Source: a virus
IMG/VR virus record: IMGVR_UViG_3300017917_003276
Coordinates: 1 to 50,671 of that record
DNA length: 50,671 nucleotides
Reading direction: 5' to 3' (one strand)
Position numbers and translations under genes: made by a program. This document shows, piece after piece, positions 2,484-9,796 of this stretch. The notes under the pieces are model-generated. The model did no database searches, was not told the DNA's origin, and worked only from the letters and a program-made list of their open reading frames with translations. The stretch's first letter is position 1. Every line of letters begins with the position of its first letter.

Positions 2484-2708
2484 GTGGCACATCCCGCCTG
2501 GCTTAACAAGTATCTTACCATGAAGCCCGAAGTCAAGCAAATTTTCAACGACCTAGAAGCATGGCACAACTACTGTAGGTTTAATATGATCAAGTATGAC
2601 CCTGCTGATCTGTACAAGAGTTCTGCCTACAGGGACTGGCAGGCTAAACGTAAGGCCAAACAGGCCAATCAAACAAGAGAAGGTGGATATCGAGGACGTA
2701 AGCAGTGA
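2484..2708 (+). CDS. Small basic conserved phage protein
   Basis: This 74-residue protein has a basic, low-complexity C-terminal tail (KRKAKQANQ, then GYRGRKQ) after a helical domain with WHNYCRFNMIKYDPADLYKS. Similar small proteins occur in T4-like cyanophages as I remember them. Function unknown; the basic tail could bind nucleic acid. It starts with GTG at 2484 after a strong AAGGAG at 2471-2476. Its stop overlaps the GTG of the next gene (GTGA). Confidence 0.7.
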   Translation: MAHPAWLNKYLTMKPEVKQIFNDLEAWHNYCRFNMIKYDPADLYKSSAYRDWQAKRKAKQANQTREGGYRGRKQ

Positions 2709-3805
2709 CAGTTTTTCTAGTTGATCTAGAAGCAGTTGAAACTAGGTACACGGGTCAATGGAAGACCCATGTACCCGAACTGCTGAAGGGAAAAGGACAT
2801 GATGTCAGAATTATTCAAGGGCCAGATGACATACCTAGTGCCACCACTCCTGGTGCTTTTCTTAACTTTGGCGGCACTAACATATACAAAGCACGGCAAG
2901 TTGAAGAAATGGGCAGACTATTTACCAACGGTAGCGTGGCTGCTGGCGATCATTTTTTGTTTACTGATGCCTGGCATCCTGGTATTATTAATCTCAAATA
3001 CATGTCCGAGTTGCTTGGAATCCCTGTCAAAATCCATGCTCTCTGGCACGCCGGGAGTTATGACCCCCAGGACTTTTTGGGCAGGCTAATTGGCGACGCG
3101 CCGTGGGTGCGACATGCAGAAAAGAGTTTCTTTCATGCCATTGACTACAACTACTTTGCCACAAACTTTCATATTAGAATGTTTGCTGAAAATCTACTAA
3201 ATGATAGTAGATCTTTGGAAAACCCATGGTGGGAAGAAGATCTTCAAGACATCCTTGATGGTAAGATTTCAAAGATTGTGCGCTCAGGTTGGCCTATGGA
3301 GTACCTTGAAGAAACTTTTGAGCAATATAGATCTAGACCCAGACACAATCGTGTGATTTTCCCGCATAGAATTGCTCCAGAAAAGCAAGTGGAAATCTTC
3401 CGAGACCTTGCTACAAGTATGCCTGAATATGAATGGGTGGTCTGTCAAGACCACCAGTTGACCAAACATGAGTATCATACTATGCTGGCGGAAAGTAAGA
3501 TCGTATTCAGTGCTAACCTGCAGGAAACCCTAGGTATCAGTTGCTACGAAGGTATGCTAGTAGGTGCTATGCCTATGGTACCTGATAGATTAAGTTATCG
3601 AGAAATGTACGATGACCATTTCCGTTATCCCAGTGAGTGGACTGAAGATTGGAACAGTTATCAACAGCACAAACATGAACTAATGGCTTTGATTGCAGAT
3701 CAAATGACCAACTTTAACTATCGTTGGAATCGAATTTACAATAATCTGCGCAGGCTAACTGCTGACTATTTTTCTGCAGATAATTTACTAAAAAATCTTG
3801 AATAG
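2705..3805 (+). CDS. GT-B glycosyltransferase (GT4-like)
   Basis: This 366-residue protein has two Rossmann-like halves. The C-terminal half contains NRVIFPHRIAPEKQVE (about residues 213-228) and SANLQETLGISCYEGMLVGA (about 268-287), the E(x)7E-type donor-sugar region of GT4-like enzymes. It would transfer a sugar from an activated donor to an unknown acceptor in the cytoplasm, for example modified DNA or a virion protein. The GTG start at 2705 overlaps the stop of the previous gene. It is followed directly, with overlap, by a shortened DegT-type aminotransferase, which suggests the pair makes and attaches an amino sugar. Confidence 0.8.
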   Translation: MTVFLVDLEAVETRYTGQWKTHVPELLKGKGHDVRIIQGPDDIPSATTPGAFLNFGGTNIYKARQVEEMGRLFTNGSVAAGDHFLFTDAWHPGIINLKYMSELLGIPVKIHALWHAGSYDPQDFLGRLIGDAPWVRHAEKSFFHAIDYNYFATNFHIRMFAENLLNDSRSLENPWWEEDLQDILDGKISKIVRSGWPMEYLEETFEQYRSRPRHNRVIFPHRIAPEKQVEIFRDLATSMPEYEWVVCQDHQLTKHEYHTMLAESKIVFSANLQETLGISCYEGMLVGAMPMVPDRLSYREMYDDHFRYPSEWTEDWNSYQQHKHELMALIADQMTNFNYRWNRIYNNLRRLTADYFSADNLLKNLE

Positions 3806-4382
3806 TCCCTTTGATAAAATTTTAGAGTTTGAGCAGGCACTGGCGCATTATACCGGTGCGCCATTTGCCATTGCAACCGATTGTTGCACTCACGCACTAG
3901 AACTGTGTTTGCGCTATCAGCGTCCGCATTTCGTTCACTTTACTGCTTATACATATTTGTCGGTACCTATGACCATGCACAAACTTGATATAGGATATAG
4001 TTATGTAGACGAAACATGGGAAGGTGAATATCCCATCTACGGCACTACTATCTGGGATAGTGCTAGGTTACTCAAACCTAACATGTACCGAACAGGACAT
4101 ATGCAGTGCCTAAGTTTTGGTCGTGACAAACCTTTGGAAATTGGTAGAGGTGGCGCAATTCTACTGGATGATGCCAAAGCCTACGAAACCATACTGAGAC
4201 AACGTTATGATGGTCGTGATCTAAGCATACTTCCGTGGCAAAATCAAAAGATTTTCTACGTGGGATACCATTATCGTATGAATCCAGAGGAAGCAGAAAT
4301 TGGATTAAAAAAATTGTCAACAGTTGATCCTAGACCTAAATATCATCAATATCCAGATCTTCGTAATATTATTATTCAATAA
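3798..4382 (+). CDS. Short DegT/DnrJ/EryC1-type aminotransferase
   Basis: This 194-residue protein has the core of the PLP-dependent sugar aminotransferase family. It shows FEQALAHYTGAPFAIATDCC near the N-terminus, an IWDSARL box in place of the usual DAA(Q)S, and SFGRDKPLEIGRGGAILLDD (about 107-126) with the candidate PLP lysine. Family members are usually 360-400 residues; the C-terminal small domain is largely missing. There is no frameshift remnant downstream, so it seems a genuinely short form, perhaps catalytically altered. The TTG start at 3798 lies inside the previous gene with no strong ribosome-binding site, implying coupling. A full-length relative is at 23629-24744. Confidence 0.72.
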   Translation: MNSPFDKILEFEQALAHYTGAPFAIATDCCTHALELCLRYQRPHFVHFTAYTYLSVPMTMHKLDIGYSYVDETWEGEYPIYGTTIWDSARLLKPNMYRTGHMQCLSFGRDKPLEIGRGGAILLDDAKAYETILRQRYDGRDLSILPWQNQKIFYVGYHYRMNPEEAEIGLKKLSTVDPRPKYHQYPDLRNIIIQ

Positions 4383-4383
4383 T

Positions 4384-4412
4384 TTGACAACGATCTAAAT
4401 ACATTATATAGT
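4384..4412 (+). promoter_or_regulatory. Sigma70-type promoter of folE
   Basis: TTGACA (4384-4389), a 17-base spacer and TATAGT (4407-4412). The predicted transcription start, near 4419, is only a few bases before the ATG at 4423. Confidence 0.8.
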
Positions 4413-4422
4413 AATAAACAAC

Positions 4423-5154
4423 ATGGCAATCCACTGCCTTAACATCGGAGAAAAACAATTGAGCGCATTTGAAATTAGTAAGATAATCAGAGAACGTATT
4501 GACGCAGCAGGCGGACGTTATTGGGCTGGCGACAACATCAGTGCTTACATCAGTGATGAAGAACGTGACCAACTGGTCAACGAACTCACTCTAAAGTTTG
4601 AGGGTGTACTAGATAGTCTTGTGATCGACAGGCACCGTGATCCTAACAGCCAAGGCACTGCACGTCGATTGGCTAAAATGTATATCTACGAAATTATGGC
4701 AGGTCGTTATGAACCTGCACCAGATGCTACAGCATTCCCCAACGACAGTCAAAACCGTTATGAAGGCATGCTGGTTGTTCGTTCAGAACTGCGCAGCATG
4801 TGCAGTCATCATCATCAACCAGTAAACGGTGTGGCCTACATCGGTATTATCGCTGCAGAAAAACTAATTGGTCTTAGCAAGTACACTCGTATTGCACAAT
4901 GGTGTGCTCGCCGCGGCACACTGCAAGAAGAACTCTGCAATGACATTGCTAGAGAAATTATGAAAGCAACTGGTGCTAAAGACGTAGGTGTTTATGTACA
5001 AGCTCAACACGGCTGCTGTGAAAATCGGGGGATAATGGCACACTCGAGTCTAACACAGACTACAGTCTTGCGGGGAGCATTTAAGGACGATATAGGAACC
5101 AAAAAGGAGTTTTTCGATAATATCAAACTCCAGCAGGATTTCTCTCCACGCTAA
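4423..5154 (+). CDS. folE: GTP cyclohydrolase I
   Basis: FolE converts GTP to 7,8-dihydroneopterin triphosphate, the first step toward 7-deazaguanine and also folate. The 243-residue protein has the zinc-site motif RSMCSHHHQP, then the family core IGLSKYTRIAQWCARR, and the second zinc Cys in HGCCENRGI. The C-terminal tail LTQTTVLRGAFKDD... is copied as a separate mini-gene at 5417. Two starts are possible: ATG 4423, which the promoter would make almost leaderless, or TTG 4459, which has GGAG at 4447-4450 and would give 231 residues. The TTG has the better ribosome-binding site. With queD and queE on the same strand, the product probably feeds 7-deazaguanine synthesis. Confidence 0.93.
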   Translation: MAIHCLNIGEKQLSAFEISKIIRERIDAAGGRYWAGDNISAYISDEERDQLVNELTLKFEGVLDSLVIDRHRDPNSQGTARRLAKMYIYEIMAGRYEPAPDATAFPNDSQNRYEGMLVVRSELRSMCSHHHQPVNGVAYIGIIAAEKLIGLSKYTRIAQWCARRGTLQEELCNDIAREIMKATGAKDVGVYVQAQHGCCENRGIMAHSSLTQTTVLRGAFKDDIGTKKEFFDNIKLQQDFSPR

Positions 5155-5167
5155 AATATTTTTTAAG

Positions 5168-5196
5168 TTTAAAATCAACTATGTTAAATTTATACT
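5168..5196 (+). promoter_or_regulatory. Possible sigma70-type promoter
   Basis: A weak TTTAAA (5168-5173), a 17-base spacer and a good TATACT (5191-5196). It is followed by GGAGG at 5210-5214 ahead of the ATG at 5223. The poor -35 box limits confidence. Confidence 0.45.
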
Positions 5197-5222
5197 TATT
5201 TATCAAATGGAGGCTGTGAAAA

Positions 5223-5420
5223 ATGAACGAATATTTTAAAAATCAAATAGAGCAAGGTGCTAAAGAGATGTTTTTCTATGGACTTGAGCATCCTGCTGAC
5301 GCTGCGGAAGACATTACGATCGAGATTAAGAGTCATAAAGGCACACTGGACACTTTTCCTAACTTGGAATATATCCGACACTTGAGCGAAGGTATTCCGT
5401 TATTTAAGGAACTGCAATGA
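5223..5420 (+). CDS. Small protein of unknown function
   Basis: This 65-residue acidic protein has no recognised motif. Its start is supported by GGAGG about 8 bases upstream and by a possible promoter in the preceding intergenic stretch. Its stop overlaps the ATG of the 34-codon FolE-tail mini-gene (ATGA), so the two should be translated together. It lies between folE and an NTF2-like gene. Confidence 0.65.
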   Translation: MNEYFKNQIEQGAKEMFFYGLEHPADAAEDITIEIKSHKGTLDTFPNLEYIRHLSEGIPLFKELQ

Positions 5421-5521
5421 CACAAACTACAGTGCTCAAGGGTGCTTTTAAGGATGACCCAGGGACTAAGAAAGAGTTCATGGATAATATTAAACTTCAA
5501 CAGGAGTTCGCTCCGCGATAA
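5417..5521 (+). CDS. 34-residue mini-gene duplicating the FolE C-terminal tail
   Basis: The peptide begins MTQTTVLKGAFKDDPGTKKE and ends KLQQEFAPR. It matches the last 34 residues of FolE at 28 of 34 positions. At DNA level, 17 codons differ silently, 6 differ in amino acid and 11 are identical. That excess of silent change suggests the peptide itself has been kept by selection and is not decaying debris. The ATG overlaps the previous stop (ATGA), and AAGGA at its end serves the next gene. It could be an assembly or regulatory mimic of the FolE multimer tail, or the remnant of an old folE duplication; function is unknown. Confidence 0.75.
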   Translation: MTQTTVLKGAFKDDPGTKKEFMDNIKLQQEFAPR

Positions 5522-5531
5522 GGAATTACAT

Positions 5532-5861
5532 ATGGACTTAAAAAATCAAGCACTGCGTTACTTTTACAAATTTTCAAACAAAGACCTGCAGGCATTGAAA
5601 ACCATGTTCGATGCTAGTGTTACTCTGAAAGACTGGAACATCGACATCATAGGGCTAGCAGGAGTACTGGACGCAAATCAAGATATTTTTGACAACGTTG
5701 AGTCTATCAAAGTTACTCCGTTGGCTATATATGAACAAAATCACACGGTCATAGCAGAACTAGATATTCTGGTTAACAATCTCGAACACCTTGCAGTAGT
5801 TGATGTAATTAAATTTAATGACAAAGGCTTAATTACATCAATCAGAGCCTACAAGGGATAA
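5532..5861 (+). CDS. NTF2/SnoaL-like protein
   Basis: This 109-residue protein has the sequence pattern of SnoaL-like/NTF2 cone-fold proteins: an N-terminal helix (ALRYFYKFSNKDLQALKTMF), then DASVTLKDW, then beta strands (HTVIAELDILVNN, LAVVDVIKFND) and the typical ending ITSIRAYKG. Members bind or isomerise small molecules; the substrate here is unknown. The start ATG 5532 has AAGGA at 5520-5524. I recall close relatives in T4-like cyanophages. Confidence 0.78.
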   Translation: MDLKNQALRYFYKFSNKDLQALKTMFDASVTLKDWNIDIIGLAGVLDANQDIFDNVESIKVTPLAIYEQNHTVIAELDILVNNLEHLAVVDVIKFNDKGLITSIRAYKG

Positions 5862-5864
5862 ACA

Positions 5865-6185
5865 ATGAACTATTTAAAATTTCATCTCGGCAAGATTTTT
5901 AGAAGTTACACGCAGTACTATTATAACAACAATGTCGCACAAGACATCAGTGTTTCTACCTCTCCCCAATACGGCCCCCGAAACCTAGTCGCTGGTAGTG
6001 ACGAGTTGGGACCTGGCAGTATAGATTTTAGAGTATGGTCAGCCAATGGCGGTGTAATTGTGCGAACCCAAAAATACGATGATGTCAAAGACCGCCACAG
6101 ATATAACATGTATGTTATCCCCGAGGGCGAAAATCTTCAAGACAACATTAGCAAGATTGTAACTATGGAATATCTAACACGATGA
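5865..6185 (+). CDS. Hypothetical phage protein
   Basis: This is a 106-residue protein with no recognised motif. It has a Tyr-rich N-terminal part (YTQYYYNN) and a predicted beta-rich middle. It starts 3 bases after the previous stop and overlaps the phosphoribosyltransferase gene by 4 bases, so it belongs to the same transcription unit. Confidence 0.65.
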   Translation: MNYLKFHLGKIFRSYTQYYYNNNVAQDISVSTSPQYGPRNLVAGSDELGPGSIDFRVWSANGGVIVRTQKYDDVKDRHRYNMYVIPEGENLQDNISKIVTMEYLTR

Positions 6186-6676
6186 AGATAAACAATAAAG
6201 AATACTATGATTACGTTCACGTACACGAGTGGATCGGCAAAATTGTGCGCCATATGTACAAGGATAACTGGCGTCCAGAGTACATTGTGGGACTCACCCG
6301 TGGAGGACTAATCCCCGCAGTGATCCTTAGCCACTACATTGATGTCCCCATGCACACACTCAAAGTCAGCCTACGAGATGGTGGCGATGTCGAATCCAAC
6401 TGCTGGATGGCCGATGATGCCTATGACGGTGTAAATATCCTTGTTGTTGATGATATAAACGATACAGGTGCTACACTAGAATGGATTACCAAAGATTGGC
6501 CTCTGAGTTGTCACCCTAAAGATAAACAGTGGTCAGAGGTATGGGGTAACAATGTAAGATTTGCCACACTAATTGATAATTTAAGCAGCAAGTTTTCTTA
6601 TAAAGTCAATTACACAGGTAAAGAAATCAACAAAGCAGAAGAAGATGTTTGGATTGTTTACCCGTGGGAGCGTTAA
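6182..6676 (+). CDS. Phosphoribosyltransferase (PRTase type I)
   Basis: This 164-residue protein has the PRPP-binding motif ILVVDDINDTGATL (about residues 89-102) and the upstream GLTRGGLIPAVILSHYIDVP typical of xanthine/hypoxanthine-type PRTases. It would join a base or regulatory ligand to phosphoribosyl pyrophosphate in the cytoplasm. Substrate cannot be told from the sequence; purine salvage or a role with 7-deazaguanine bases are both possible. It overlaps its neighbours on both sides (ATGA and TAATG). Confidence 0.85.
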   Translation: MKINNKEYYDYVHVHEWIGKIVRHMYKDNWRPEYIVGLTRGGLIPAVILSHYIDVPMHTLKVSLRDGGDVESNCWMADDAYDGVNILVVDDINDTGATLEWITKDWPLSCHPKDKQWSEVWGNNVRFATLIDNLSSKFSYKVNYTGKEINKAEEDVWIVYPWER

Positions 6677-6888
6677 TGAACTGGAATAAAATTGTAGGAT
6701 GGATTGCTAATGTAGTTACAATCGTAGGCGTTGTGTTGACCAGTTATGACGTATATCCTGCCAATCTAGCAGTGATGTTGGTGGCCAGTGCGATGTGGAT
6801 TACTACCGGCCTAATTTGGCGTCGGCCTGAACTTTGGACATTGAATGCCCTAATCTTTCTTATCTACTTACATGGATTAATTAAATAA
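6676..6888 (+). CDS. Small two-helix membrane protein
   Basis: This 70-residue protein has two or three hydrophobic segments: IVGWIANVVTIVGVVLTSY, NLAVMLVASAMWITTGLIW and a C-terminal ALIFLIYLHG. It is probably an inner-membrane protein of unknown role. The ATG at 6676 overlaps the previous stop (TAATG). An earlier in-frame start at 6649 would lie inside the phosphoribosyltransferase gene and is less likely. Confidence 0.7.
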   Translation: MNWNKIVGWIANVVTIVGVVLTSYDVYPANLAVMLVASAMWITTGLIWRRPELWTLNALIFLIYLHGLIK

Positions 6889-6920
6889 TTCTTCAATATT
6901 GATTACAAAAATTTATATAG

Positions 6921-8936
6921 ATGTTAAACAAAAAAAATGTTTATCTGTGGAGCAAAAACATGAATAGTGGAAGTCTAATTCCACTATTATGGTTTAGTGC
7001 CAAAACTTACTACGAAGAAAATGGATCAAATGTTGAGCAGTGGGCCTGGCAGGATCCGTTTATTCATGATCGATCAATTGAAGATATTCTTAATTATCTA
7101 ACTCTGTATCCTCCTACAATATTTGGTCTAAGTGTTTATGTTTGGAGTTATGAACTCGCCGATCAGTTAGCCAAAGAAATAAGATCACGATGGCCCAAAT
7201 GTTTAATTATATACGGTGGACCTCAAAATGACATCAAATATTCAGAAGATTTTTTTATCAAAAAGCCCTGGGTTGATCTTGTAGTACCTAGCGATGTATA
7301 CGGGGAACCAATATTAACTTATATACTTGACAACTACGACAATTTAAAACACCACCAAATACCAGAAGTATACTATCAACGCAGTGGCATTAAATTTAGA
7401 AGCAAACATGAATTAAAAAAAAGAGACTTTGTTTGGCCAAAAAATATATTTGCTCAGCAAAAAGAATATCTCAATTTTGAAAGAAAAGATAGTTGGGCTA
7501 TATACGAAACCACTCGAGGATGTCCGTATCGATGTATCTATTGTGACTGGGGTGGCGGAACTTATACTAAAGTAATTAAAAAACCTATAGAAACCATACG
7601 AAGTGAGTTAGAATCTTTGGCCGCAGCCAAAATTGAATTTCTAATAATTGCAGATGCTAACTTTGGTATCTACAAAGAAGATCTAGACATTATTGAATAT
7701 ATCATCGAACTAAAAAACAAATATGGTTATCCTTTAACTGTTAATATTGAAAACGCTAAAAATAATCTAGATCGTGTTATAAAGATACAAAAATTGATGA
7801 TTAAAAATCAATTGAGTTCATTTTATAAAATTAGTGTTCAAAGTCCTGATGATGTTGTAAAGGCCAATATTGATCGAGTTGATATCCCTTTTGAAAAATA
7901 TATAGATGCTATCCGAGAGTTAAAAACGGAATTCAATGCCCCTGTATGGTTTGAAACTATTTTAGGTCTCCCCGGAGACAATTATGAATCAACTTTAGAA
8001 ACTATTAATTTAGTTTATGCGCATGATGTTGATAGTTTTAGATCTAGTATTTGGATGTTGCTACCCGAAGCGCCGGCCTTTGACCCTGCTGTGCGTAGTA
8101 AATTTAAGATAGAAACCAAAAGGTTTGAGTTATCAACACACCCGTTTCAATGGAAACCCGATCATACTCCGGATCCTGGTGTACAGGCTATAAGCAGTCT
8201 AACTATGATAAGTGAAAATGTAATCGGAACTTACAGTTACTCTAGCCTAGAATGGGTTGATATGGTAGCGGTAAGTATGCTAGCAGGGATCAGCAAAACT
8301 CTGGGAATTGATCTGCTGGTAAAATATTTACAAAACGAACTTAACGTATCTGCAGGTACTTTTTATGATCAGGTTTATAGAAATATTATTATACCAGGAA
8401 AATTTAATTCCCCTGAATTGAATCAAAAATTTTTAGAAATACCAAAACAATTAAAAGCGATAATTTCAGAAGATAAGATTCATAGATTAGAATTTGACAT
8501 TGACCCCCGTTTTCCCCTTAATTTGTCTATCTATGTCTATGTTGCATTTGTAATAATGCTATACCCTAAATCGTTCTTTGAATCAGTTACTGAGTATTTT
8601 TCCAAAAGCCTCAATGATGAAAAATTAAAAGACCTTGGCCAATATCTTGCCAATATAATGATAGATATGGACTACAATCCCGTGACCAAAAGAGTTTTTG
8701 AAACAAAATTTAATTGGTATGGTTATTTTAATCTAAATAAACCATTAACAAGTGGTAGATATGAGTATAAAATATTAGATGAGCAACTAAAATTTAAGTC
8801 TTCTTCGTTATTTGAACATTCAGACTACCCAGAAAAAACAGATAGATACGAAAAAATGAAACAATTTTTTTATCACAGAGCAAGCAATACATCAAGAAAA
8901 AAATATGCTCAACACATTGTTGAAGGTAAATTATGA
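6921..8936 (+). CDS. B12-binding-type radical SAM protein
   Basis: This 671-residue protein has an N-terminal region (about 1-150) resembling the cobalamin-binding domain of class B radical SAM enzymes: SGSLIPLLWFSAKTYYEENG, then FGLSVYVWSYELADQLA, then CLIIYGGPQ. A radical SAM core follows, with the cluster motif C201-x3-C205-x2-C208 in TTRGCPYRCIYCDW and an ETILGLPGDNYEST motif. The C-terminal 250 residues are unassigned. Such enzymes often methylate unreactive carbons or rearrange substrates. The gene looks distinctly AT-richer than its neighbours and has no clear ribosome-binding site, suggesting later acquisition. Its stop overlaps the queE ATG (ATGA), so a role in modifying the 7-deazaguanine base or its DNA is a reasonable guess. 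Confidence 0.82.
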   Translation: MLNKKNVYLWSKNMNSGSLIPLLWFSAKTYYEENGSNVEQWAWQDPFIHDRSIEDILNYLTLYPPTIFGLSVYVWSYELADQLAKEIRSRWPKCLIIYGGPQNDIKYSEDFFIKKPWVDLVVPSDVYGEPILTYILDNYDNLKHHQIPEVYYQRSGIKFRSKHELKKRDFVWPKNIFAQQKEYLNFERKDSWAIYETTRGCPYRCIYCDWGGGTYTKVIKKPIETIRSELESLAAAKIEFLIIADANFGIYKEDLDIIEYIIELKNKYGYPLTVNIENAKNNLDRVIKIQKLMIKNQLSSFYKISVQSPDDVVKANIDRVDIPFEKYIDAIRELKTEFNAPVWFETILGLPGDNYESTLETINLVYAHDVDSFRSSIWMLLPEAPAFDPAVRSKFKIETKRFELSTHPFQWKPDHTPDPGVQAISSLTMISENVIGTYSYSSLEWVDMVAVSMLAGISKTLGIDLLVKYLQNELNVSAGTFYDQVYRNIIIPGKFNSPELNQKFLEIPKQLKAIISEDKIHRLEFDIDPRFPLNLSIYVYVAFVIMLYPKSFFESVTEYFSKSLNDEKLKDLGQYLANIMIDMDYNPVTKRVFETKFNWYGYFNLNKPLTSGRYEYKILDEQLKFKSSSLFEHSDYPEKTDRYEKMKQFFYHRASNTSRKKYAQHIVEGKL

Positions 8937-9796
8937 AAATCAAAGTCAGTGAAATCTTTTATTCAGCACAGGGCGAAGGTCGTTTTGTAGGCGTTCCCAG
9001 CGTGTTCCTTCGTACTTTTGGCTGCAATTTTACCTGTGGCGGGTTTGGTATGCCGCGCGGCGAGATGAGCAAGGAACGCGACCGGGTCGCCATTAAAGTT
9101 GACGACTTTAAGCGTTACGAAGATCTACCTCTGGTCAATACTGGCTGCGATAGTTATGCAAGTTGGGATCCTAAGTTCAAACATTTGAGTCCAAATTATA
9201 CTACGGAAGAAGTTATTGAGCGCATGCTAGCGTTAACTCCTAACAAGTCTTGGATGCAAGACAACGGCAACGATGTGCATCTTGTGATCACCGGCGGTGA
9301 ACCCTTACTGGGTTGGCAAAAGGTATATCCAGATCTCCTGGAAGCCATTAGTATGCGAGATCTCAAAAATCTAACATTTGAAACCAACGGTACACAAGAA
9401 CTACACAAAGACTTCAAGGACTATCTCAAGCACTGGCGTGGTCCTGATTGGATGGATCGTGATATCACGTTCAGTGTCAGTGCAAAACTTTCAGCCTCGG
9501 GGGAAAAATGGTCAGACGCTATCAAACCAACAATAGTTGCAGAATACGCAGAATATGGTTTTACATATCTCAAATTTGTCGTAGAAAAAGCCATTGATTT
9601 TGATGAAGTAGACCAAGCAGTCAAAGAATACCGTAGCGCAGGATTCCACGGCGTGGTCTATATCATGCCCGTGGGCGGAGTAGTTTCAGTATATGACGGC
9701 AATAAATTTAATGTTGCTGATGAAGCAATCAAACGTGGTTACTACTATAGTCCAAGGTTGCATGTTGATCTTTGGGGTAATAGTTGGGGCAAGTAA
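8933..9796 (+). CDS. queE: 7-carboxy-7-deazaguanine synthase-like radical SAM protein
   Basis: QueE makes the 7-carboxy-7-deazaguanine ring from carboxytetrahydropterin. The 287-residue protein starts with the family signature SEIFYSAQGEGRFVGVPSVF (residues 6-25) and has ITGGEPLL and FETNGTQ. The cluster motif is unusual: GC31NFTC35GGF38 lacks the third Cys of CxxxCxxC, and the next Cys is C72 in NTGCDSYASW after an insert, which may supply the third ligand. I recall this insert form from other T4-like phage proteins annotated as QueE or organic radical activating enzymes. Starts at an ATG overlapping the radical SAM gene upstream, and is followed by a TAATG overlap. Confidence 0.88.
   Translation: MKIKVSEIFYSAQGEGRFVGVPSVFLRTFGCNFTCGGFGMPRGEMSKERDRVAIKVDDFKRYEDLPLVNTGCDSYASWDPKFKHLSPNYTTEEVIERMLALTPNKSWMQDNGNDVHLVITGGEPLLGWQKVYPDLLEAISMRDLKNLTFETNGTQELHKDFKDYLKHWRGPDWMDRDITFSVSAKLSASGEKWSDAIKPTIVAEYAEYGFTYLKFVVEKAIDFDEVDQAVKEYRSAGFHGVVYIMPVGGVVSVYDGNKFNVADEAIKRGYYYSPRLHVDLWGNSWGK

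Follow-up and report, generated by a model that had tools for sequence, protein, structure and literature searches.

Foreign gene ends that arrive together with an endonuclease gene are known from fungal mitochondria, where mORFs carry a foreign C-terminus for atp6 in Allomyces and for atp6, atp9, cox2 and nad3 in Glomus sp., the enzymes being of the LAGLIDADG or GIY-YIG type (PMC3630166). The native atp6 and cox2 tails of Glomus are not expressed as mRNA (PMC3630166). Among phages, the ShiLan element is an out-of-frame HNH gene in a phage methylase (PMC11855218), and the T4 mob and seg genes are the closest phage relatives in kind of the element described here (PMC2988022).

The folE locus of the window (the whole 50,671-nucleotide viral stretch analysed here, IMG/VR record IMGVR_UViG_3300017917_003276) and its relatives resemble the fungal mORFs in joining an endonuclease gene to a replacement 3' end of the target, with a hybrid host gene as the outcome, and in carrying the native C-terminus displaced downstream, the tail differences being largely silent and the tail horizontally transferred (PMC3630166). 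Here too, the foreign 3' end stands in frame with the host 5' part and the native 3' end lies behind the endonuclease (L112, L113, L206, L101 and others; in the window, by synteny). Unlike the fungal elements, however, the folE element resides in phage, encodes an HNH enzyme and is antisense to its target, whose end it overlaps, and, unlike the native tails of Glomus, the displaced folE tail has a start codon (PMC3630166). Given the different enzyme families of the fungal elements, the likeness is likely a case of convergence.

With the T4-like mob genes, the element shares a free-standing HNH gene, a variable C-terminal DNA-binding part, a position beside a conserved metabolic gene and spread from phage to phage; it departs from them, and from intronless homing, in that the C-terminus of the target is replaced and its tail displaced, neither of which is described in the available part of that source (PMC2988022). 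As in the ICP1-related exchange bracketed by HEGs, nuclease genes stand at boundaries of genetic exchange between phages, while the available part of that account describes no displaced and re-started gene tail of the kind found in the folE loci (PMC10448857). ShiLan, too, is a homing HNH insertion, one that leaves its target unharmed without being spliced; there, reading continues through the insert in the frame of the host gene, whereas folE is restored by a replacement tail (PMC11855218). Within the open-access literature, which was the scope of our search, we found no replacement tail described for a phage, and priority is to that extent uncertain. The folE loci would show that a selfish endonuclease needs no splicing to occupy an essential motif of a metabolic gene, since it brings the missing end along, and would explain puzzling phage ORFs that are short copies of a neighbour's C-terminus.

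The mini-gene at 5417-5521 (plus strand) encodes 34 residues, MTQTTVLKGAFKDDPGTKKEFMDNIKLQQEFAPR, followed by a stop. An earlier note on this DNA had described it as a copy of the last 34 residues of FolE, with 28 matching positions, 17 silent codon differences and 6 replacements. Realignment to the tail of the window's FolE (5050-5151) reproduces these figures: 28/34 residues and 74/102 nucleotides are identical, and the codons divide into 11 identical, 17 synonymous and 6 nonsynonymous. A tblastn search of the window with its own FolE tail returns the mini-gene far beyond chance (E about 3e-17). The reported ATGA coupling to a 65-residue gene is also real, the overlap joining the start of the mini-gene to the end of the ORF at 5223-5420; the gap between the folE stop and the mini-gene, about 260 bases in the note, is 262 nt. 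The extent of the homology has to be trimmed by one position, however, as FolE Leu210 corresponds to the start Met of the mini-gene and the homology runs from Thr211 onward.

The best match of the mini-gene lies outside the window. After the start Met, all 33 of its 33 residues are those of the functional FolE tails of loci L038, L058 and L061 (84.8-85.9% identical in DNA), while the window's own FolE tail, at 73.7%, ranks only 52nd among 129 tails by DNA identity. Positional equivalents exist in 17 other loci that bear the element. The mini-gene is thus almost certainly the displaced native 3' end of folE (codons T211-R243) fitted with a start codon, and the tail on the full-length gene is the foreign one.

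The full-length folE (4423-5154, plus strand) encodes a GTP cyclohydrolase I of 243 residues (PF01227, E=3.5e-38; phrog_2197; PDB alignment to E. coli FolE) and is a hybrid of a native body and a foreign tail. Against the folE of L022, its body shows about 70% nucleotide identity and its last 126 nt show 94%, so that the tail on the full-length gene is what moved; every other folE tail is at most 78% identical to that of the window. The replacement tail occupies 5011-5154 (plus strand); its left boundary falls between codons 186 and 197 (4978-5011), codon 186 being the change point. The last 21 codons of a homing endonuclease gene (5126-5188, minus strand; ...KLKKYFSVERNPAGV) run in antisense orientation across the 3' end of folE and were detected by tblastn with the L022 endonuclease, which aligns here over its residues 190-210 (86% identity, E=1.7e-6). 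This 63-bp leftover from the 3' end of the gene indicates that the endonuclease was once there and is now mostly deleted.

Behind the remnant, a 5' stub of the displaced folE copy remains at 5209-5222 (plus strand; GGAGGCTGTGAAAA, compare GGCTGCTGTGAAAA, coding G-C-C-E-N), and the same stub, TGG.TG(C/T)TGTGA.AA, follows the endonuclease in 25 of the 27 element loci. The 65-residue gene (5223-5420, plus strand) lies between this stub and the mini-gene, which its 3' end provides with an AAGGA Shine-Dalgarno sequence and the ATGA. Downstream, at 5532-5861 (plus strand), is a gene for a SnoaL-like protein of 109 residues (PF12680, E=6.4e-8), the native neighbour of folE. In five element-free loci (L001, L004, L005, L007 and L049), SnoaL-like homologs with 46-53% identity sit directly behind folE with an ATGA overlap, and in the folE-body tree three of these loci (L001, L005 and L007) are among the closest neighbours of the window. 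As the SnoaL-like gene follows folE in these relatives and the mini-gene in the window, 5417-5521 is the original end of folE, and the intervening DNA came later. A search of viral contigs with the SnoaL-like protein itself gave no match under settings that were too strict, since homologs do sit behind folE in related loci.

Searches with the endonuclease family yielded about 25 distinct contigs in which the gene follows folE immediately, in antisense orientation, and in most cases runs into the folE 3' end. The endonuclease of L022 is 210 residues long (4650-5282, minus strand), starts about 600 nt past folE and ends inside it. Together with those of L107 and L105 it belongs to the homing endonuclease family phrog_655 (E=3e-21 to 5e-25; L022, E=5e-25); the window keeps only the last 21 codons of its own. 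Against the Pfam HNH cut-off, L022 scores above, and L112, L107 and L113 slightly below. Comparison of loci shows that the replacement tail travels with the endonuclease and that the insertion point is at the codons for HGCCENRG. This motif aligns with HYCVKARG around Cys181 of E. coli FolE, a known zinc ligand, the counterpart in the phage protein being Cys198. Homing endonucleases typically target conserved sites.

The loci form a series of states. In L112, L113 and L206 the full order of folE, antisense endonuclease and displaced tail is kept, the tail being complete from G197 (..GCCENRGIMAHSSLTQTTVL.. through to the stop) and the stub running straight into it. Nine loci, truncated on the 5' side, retain 31-38 FolE-derived codons (L101, L105, L107, L191, L192, L205, L214, L216, L217), and four retain 9-16 (L102, L193, L196, L198); the homologous codons kept, 11 in L196, 15 in L193 and 9 in L102, are always those of the 3' end. 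L104/L106 is like the window, with the endonuclease lost and the rest kept. Overall, a displaced tail is present in 18 of 27 distinct element loci and no recognisable one in 9, and none of about 81 element-free folE loci contains a second folE tail. Four other candidates from the pattern scan (L108-L111) were rejected as free tails, being ordinary full-length FolE with Met at position 210.

At this one site the element is present in some phages and absent from others, and its distribution departs from the phylogeny of the hosts. On the folE-body tree, a quick tree with many weak branches, the element requires 22 changes for 27 bearing rows, a scatter like that obtained with shuffled labels (mean of 24), and a single clade of element-bearing loci is rejected (p-AU 0.003). 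Element-borne tails can be nearly identical where the bodies are not (L104/L206, 99% versus 70%; L205/L206, 97% versus 69%). Judging from this patchy distribution across the folE of environmental phages, the element seems to be very active. The element loci come without exception from metagenomic virus contigs; the cultured phages of INPHARED yielded neither a free FolE tail nor a close endonuclease, identities staying below 60%.

Mechanistically, comparison of the loci shows that an element made of a replacement folE 3' end and an antisense HNH endonuclease gene inserted into folE at the HGCCENRG codons, its own tail restoring a full-length gene and the native tail being pushed downstream. 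A homing element, whose endonuclease would cleave the element-free allele and drive copying, is very probably the cause of the displacement. In the lineage of the window, most of the endonuclease would later have been deleted, and the 65-residue gene would have come between stub and displaced tail. The end of folE would hold the Shine-Dalgarno sequence and start region of the next gene, and translation of that end would keep the next gene expressed; the displaced tail, with start signals and in front of the original neighbour of folE, would persist as a short relay cistron. The explanation as a whole (insertion of the element, displacement of the native tail and its retention as a relay) has, in our view, a good probability.

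The relay is suggested by the start codons of the displaced tails. An in-frame ATG lies within 18 nt upstream of 12 of 13 truncated tails, as against 1/13 in each of the other frames (p=8e-5 if independent), although common ancestry is possible for those junctions that involve the ..HFGVEE gene, so that the 12 do not amount to 12 fully independent events. These 13 tails were not selected for a start codon; L104 and the window were left out. Loci L104, L105 and L107 had first been found by a pattern that requires an ATG, and the endonuclease search found L105 (as L211) and L107 (as L199) again, but not L104. Most of the regained starts come with a motif resembling a Shine-Dalgarno sequence; in eight cases the start overlaps the stop codon of a small gene upstream.

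The other side of the relay is the following gene. Its start overlaps the stop in 41 of 81 element-free folE genes and 11 of 18 displaced tails, and in none of the 27 main folE genes of element loci (Fisher, 3e-6). In the displaced tails of the relatives this overlap is mostly -1. Among the folE genes whose stop is overlapped, 37 of 41 have AGGA within the final 24 nt, compared with 6 of the 40 others. The choice of Gln codons at the end of FolE (CAACAGGA for QQE/QQD) is tied to the overlap of next gene and stop (element-free L001, L004, L005, L007 and others). Read from the sequence, the QQE/QQD codons carry a predicted ribosome site of the next gene.

The regain of start codons, the stop overlap and the embedded AGGA therefore point to retention of the tail as a relay that would keep ribosomes arriving downstream, and the shortest displaced tails, which keep only the 3' end, fit this function. 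The window has the corresponding signals: AAGGA, ATG, an ATGA overlap with the 65-residue gene and a next start close by. That next gene begins 13 nt after the first base of the stop of the tail, with an AAGGA of its own; it may therefore not need the coupling, and dependence on the relay may be weaker in the window. The relay is also dispensable, as an in-frame start is missing from L198 and nine element loci lack a recognisable displaced tail. On balance, we somewhat favour the relay as the reason for retention. A more general reading, in which displaced tails repeatedly become translated mini-cistrons with a selected role (as a relay, possibly also as a peptide acting on FolE), is possible if doubtful; if true, displaced-tail mini-cistrons would be a route from selfish elements to new small genes. 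Such tails constitute a natural experiment in the origin of small cistrons with start signals.

If the displaced tail were instead plain debris, untranslated or irrelevant and not yet decayed, its presence would reflect recent invasion, and some invasions are indeed recent (the element-borne tails of L216 and L217 have an Sd of 0), while several loci have lost the tail. The bias towards in-frame starts over the other frames, the Shine-Dalgarno motif or ATGA coupling of most tails and the retention of the 3' end rather than of random pieces speak against it, and we consider debris unlikely. The earlier note had named absence or frame-breaking in relatives as the mark of debris; free FolE-tail ORFs are in fact found in many related phages, so that pure debris does not describe them, even though some are shrunk or gone.

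Slightly less likely again is retention of the displaced tail for use as the right homology arm in homing, with selection on DNA and not on translation. A homing donor requires homology on either side of the break, and the displaced copy does match the native tail and downstream genes of a recipient; but the downstream genes could suffice as an arm, and arms of 9-16 codons and the acquired start codons are left unexplained.

The earlier note had read the silent differences as selection on the peptide and had proposed that a free tail might act in FolE assembly. Two features would favour a peptide that tunes assembly or activity by binding FolE or a partner of the FolE tail: in many phages the displaced tail is an intact ORF equipped with start signals, and its sequence is no less canonical than that of a functional tail (each group averaging 0.36 unseen residues per tail). 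The silent differences, however, have another source. The pN/pS of 11 aligned displaced tails against the nearest functional tail is 0.113, and that of functional tails against their nearest functional tail is 0.102. Between L216 and L217, divergence is similar for the displaced tails (pS 0.42) and the folE bodies (pS 0.46), but close to nil for the element-borne tails (Sd 0). The low ratio therefore dates from before displacement: when the displaced tails diverged, along with their host phages, they were still the end of folE, and the element came afterwards. The ratio in the window thus records the earlier divergence of two folE alleles, both functional and only later brought together. We reject it as evidence of selection on the free peptide, since functional tails give the same ratio and displacement came later than most of the divergence.

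A role in assembly is also at odds with the sister loci that shrink the tail to 9-16 codons of the 3' end, or lose it, while keeping the 3' junction. Moreover, the peptide spans T211-R243 only: it begins C-terminal of Cys198, the residue aligned with E. coli Cys181, and has neither a metal ligand nor the zinc ligands and active site of a GTP cyclohydrolase I. A functional peptide is thus improbable, and the peptide of the mini-gene is itself probably without function. What stands of the earlier interpretation is a real ORF with a start codon and the existence of free tails in many relatives, not the selection read from silent differences; for annotation, silent-site ratios of such tails should not count as evidence for peptide function.

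Endonuclease genes inside conserved catalytic motifs are typical of introns and inteins, and the position of this one could suggest that the insert is spliced out and FolE made with its native tail. This is highly improbable: folE is complete, with its own stop ahead of the endonuclease, which is antisense to it, and Rfam intron families have no match in the window or in six element loci, on which ground an intron was rejected. That the folE end was misassembled, or simply duplicated in tandem, is conceivable for a single contig from a metagenomic virus collection but has a negligible chance of being right, as about 27 distinct and independent contigs share the architecture and the two tails, only 73% identical in DNA, are each nearest to a different phage.

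Several further features of these loci were observed. The endonucleases of L105 and L113, at the same folE site, have a common N-terminal HNH part and different C-terminal parts, which suggests from their sequences that these enzymes swap DNA-binding domains. The space that separates the stub from the displaced tail accommodates small genes (L104, L105, L107, L205, L216, L217), which often encode MNE(K/R)I..LAEQ...HFGVEE proteins with a variable middle and a conserved end (GTTGAAGAATGA). Behind the 5' end of the endonuclease, L101 and L100/L103 have a consensus-like sigma-70 promoter aimed at the displaced tail and the downstream genes (in L101, TTGACA-17-TATAAT). At the same place in the window (5168-5196, plus strand), a consensus scan gives a weak version, TTTAAA-17-TATACT, whose 9/12 matches are suggestive only. 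The nearby TATTTATCAAATGGAGGCTGTGAAAA stretch is the element edge plus the folE stub; it was rejected as a genome-wide leader or promoter, TATTTATCAANTGG having a single exact match in the window.

The 65-residue protein has no Pfam or PHROG match. Its relatives, found in 14 viral contigs (among them L083, L085, L086, L025, L088, L089, L090, L092 and L094), precede unrelated genes (clamp-loader-like, epimerase-like and others), and many of them likewise end in ATGA. The C-terminus, FKE.., encodes AAGGA, and the gene usually ends in ATGA; this modular gene appears to supply a ribosome site and a start codon to whichever gene comes next. Finally, the region of the window around folE (2705-9796) contains a glycosyltransferase-like gene, a DegT-like aminotransferase fragment (194 residues), a phosphoribosyltransferase, a radical SAM protein with a weak B12-binding match and a QueE-like radical SAM protein, and the presence of folE and queE together may mark a region for deazaguanine DNA modification.
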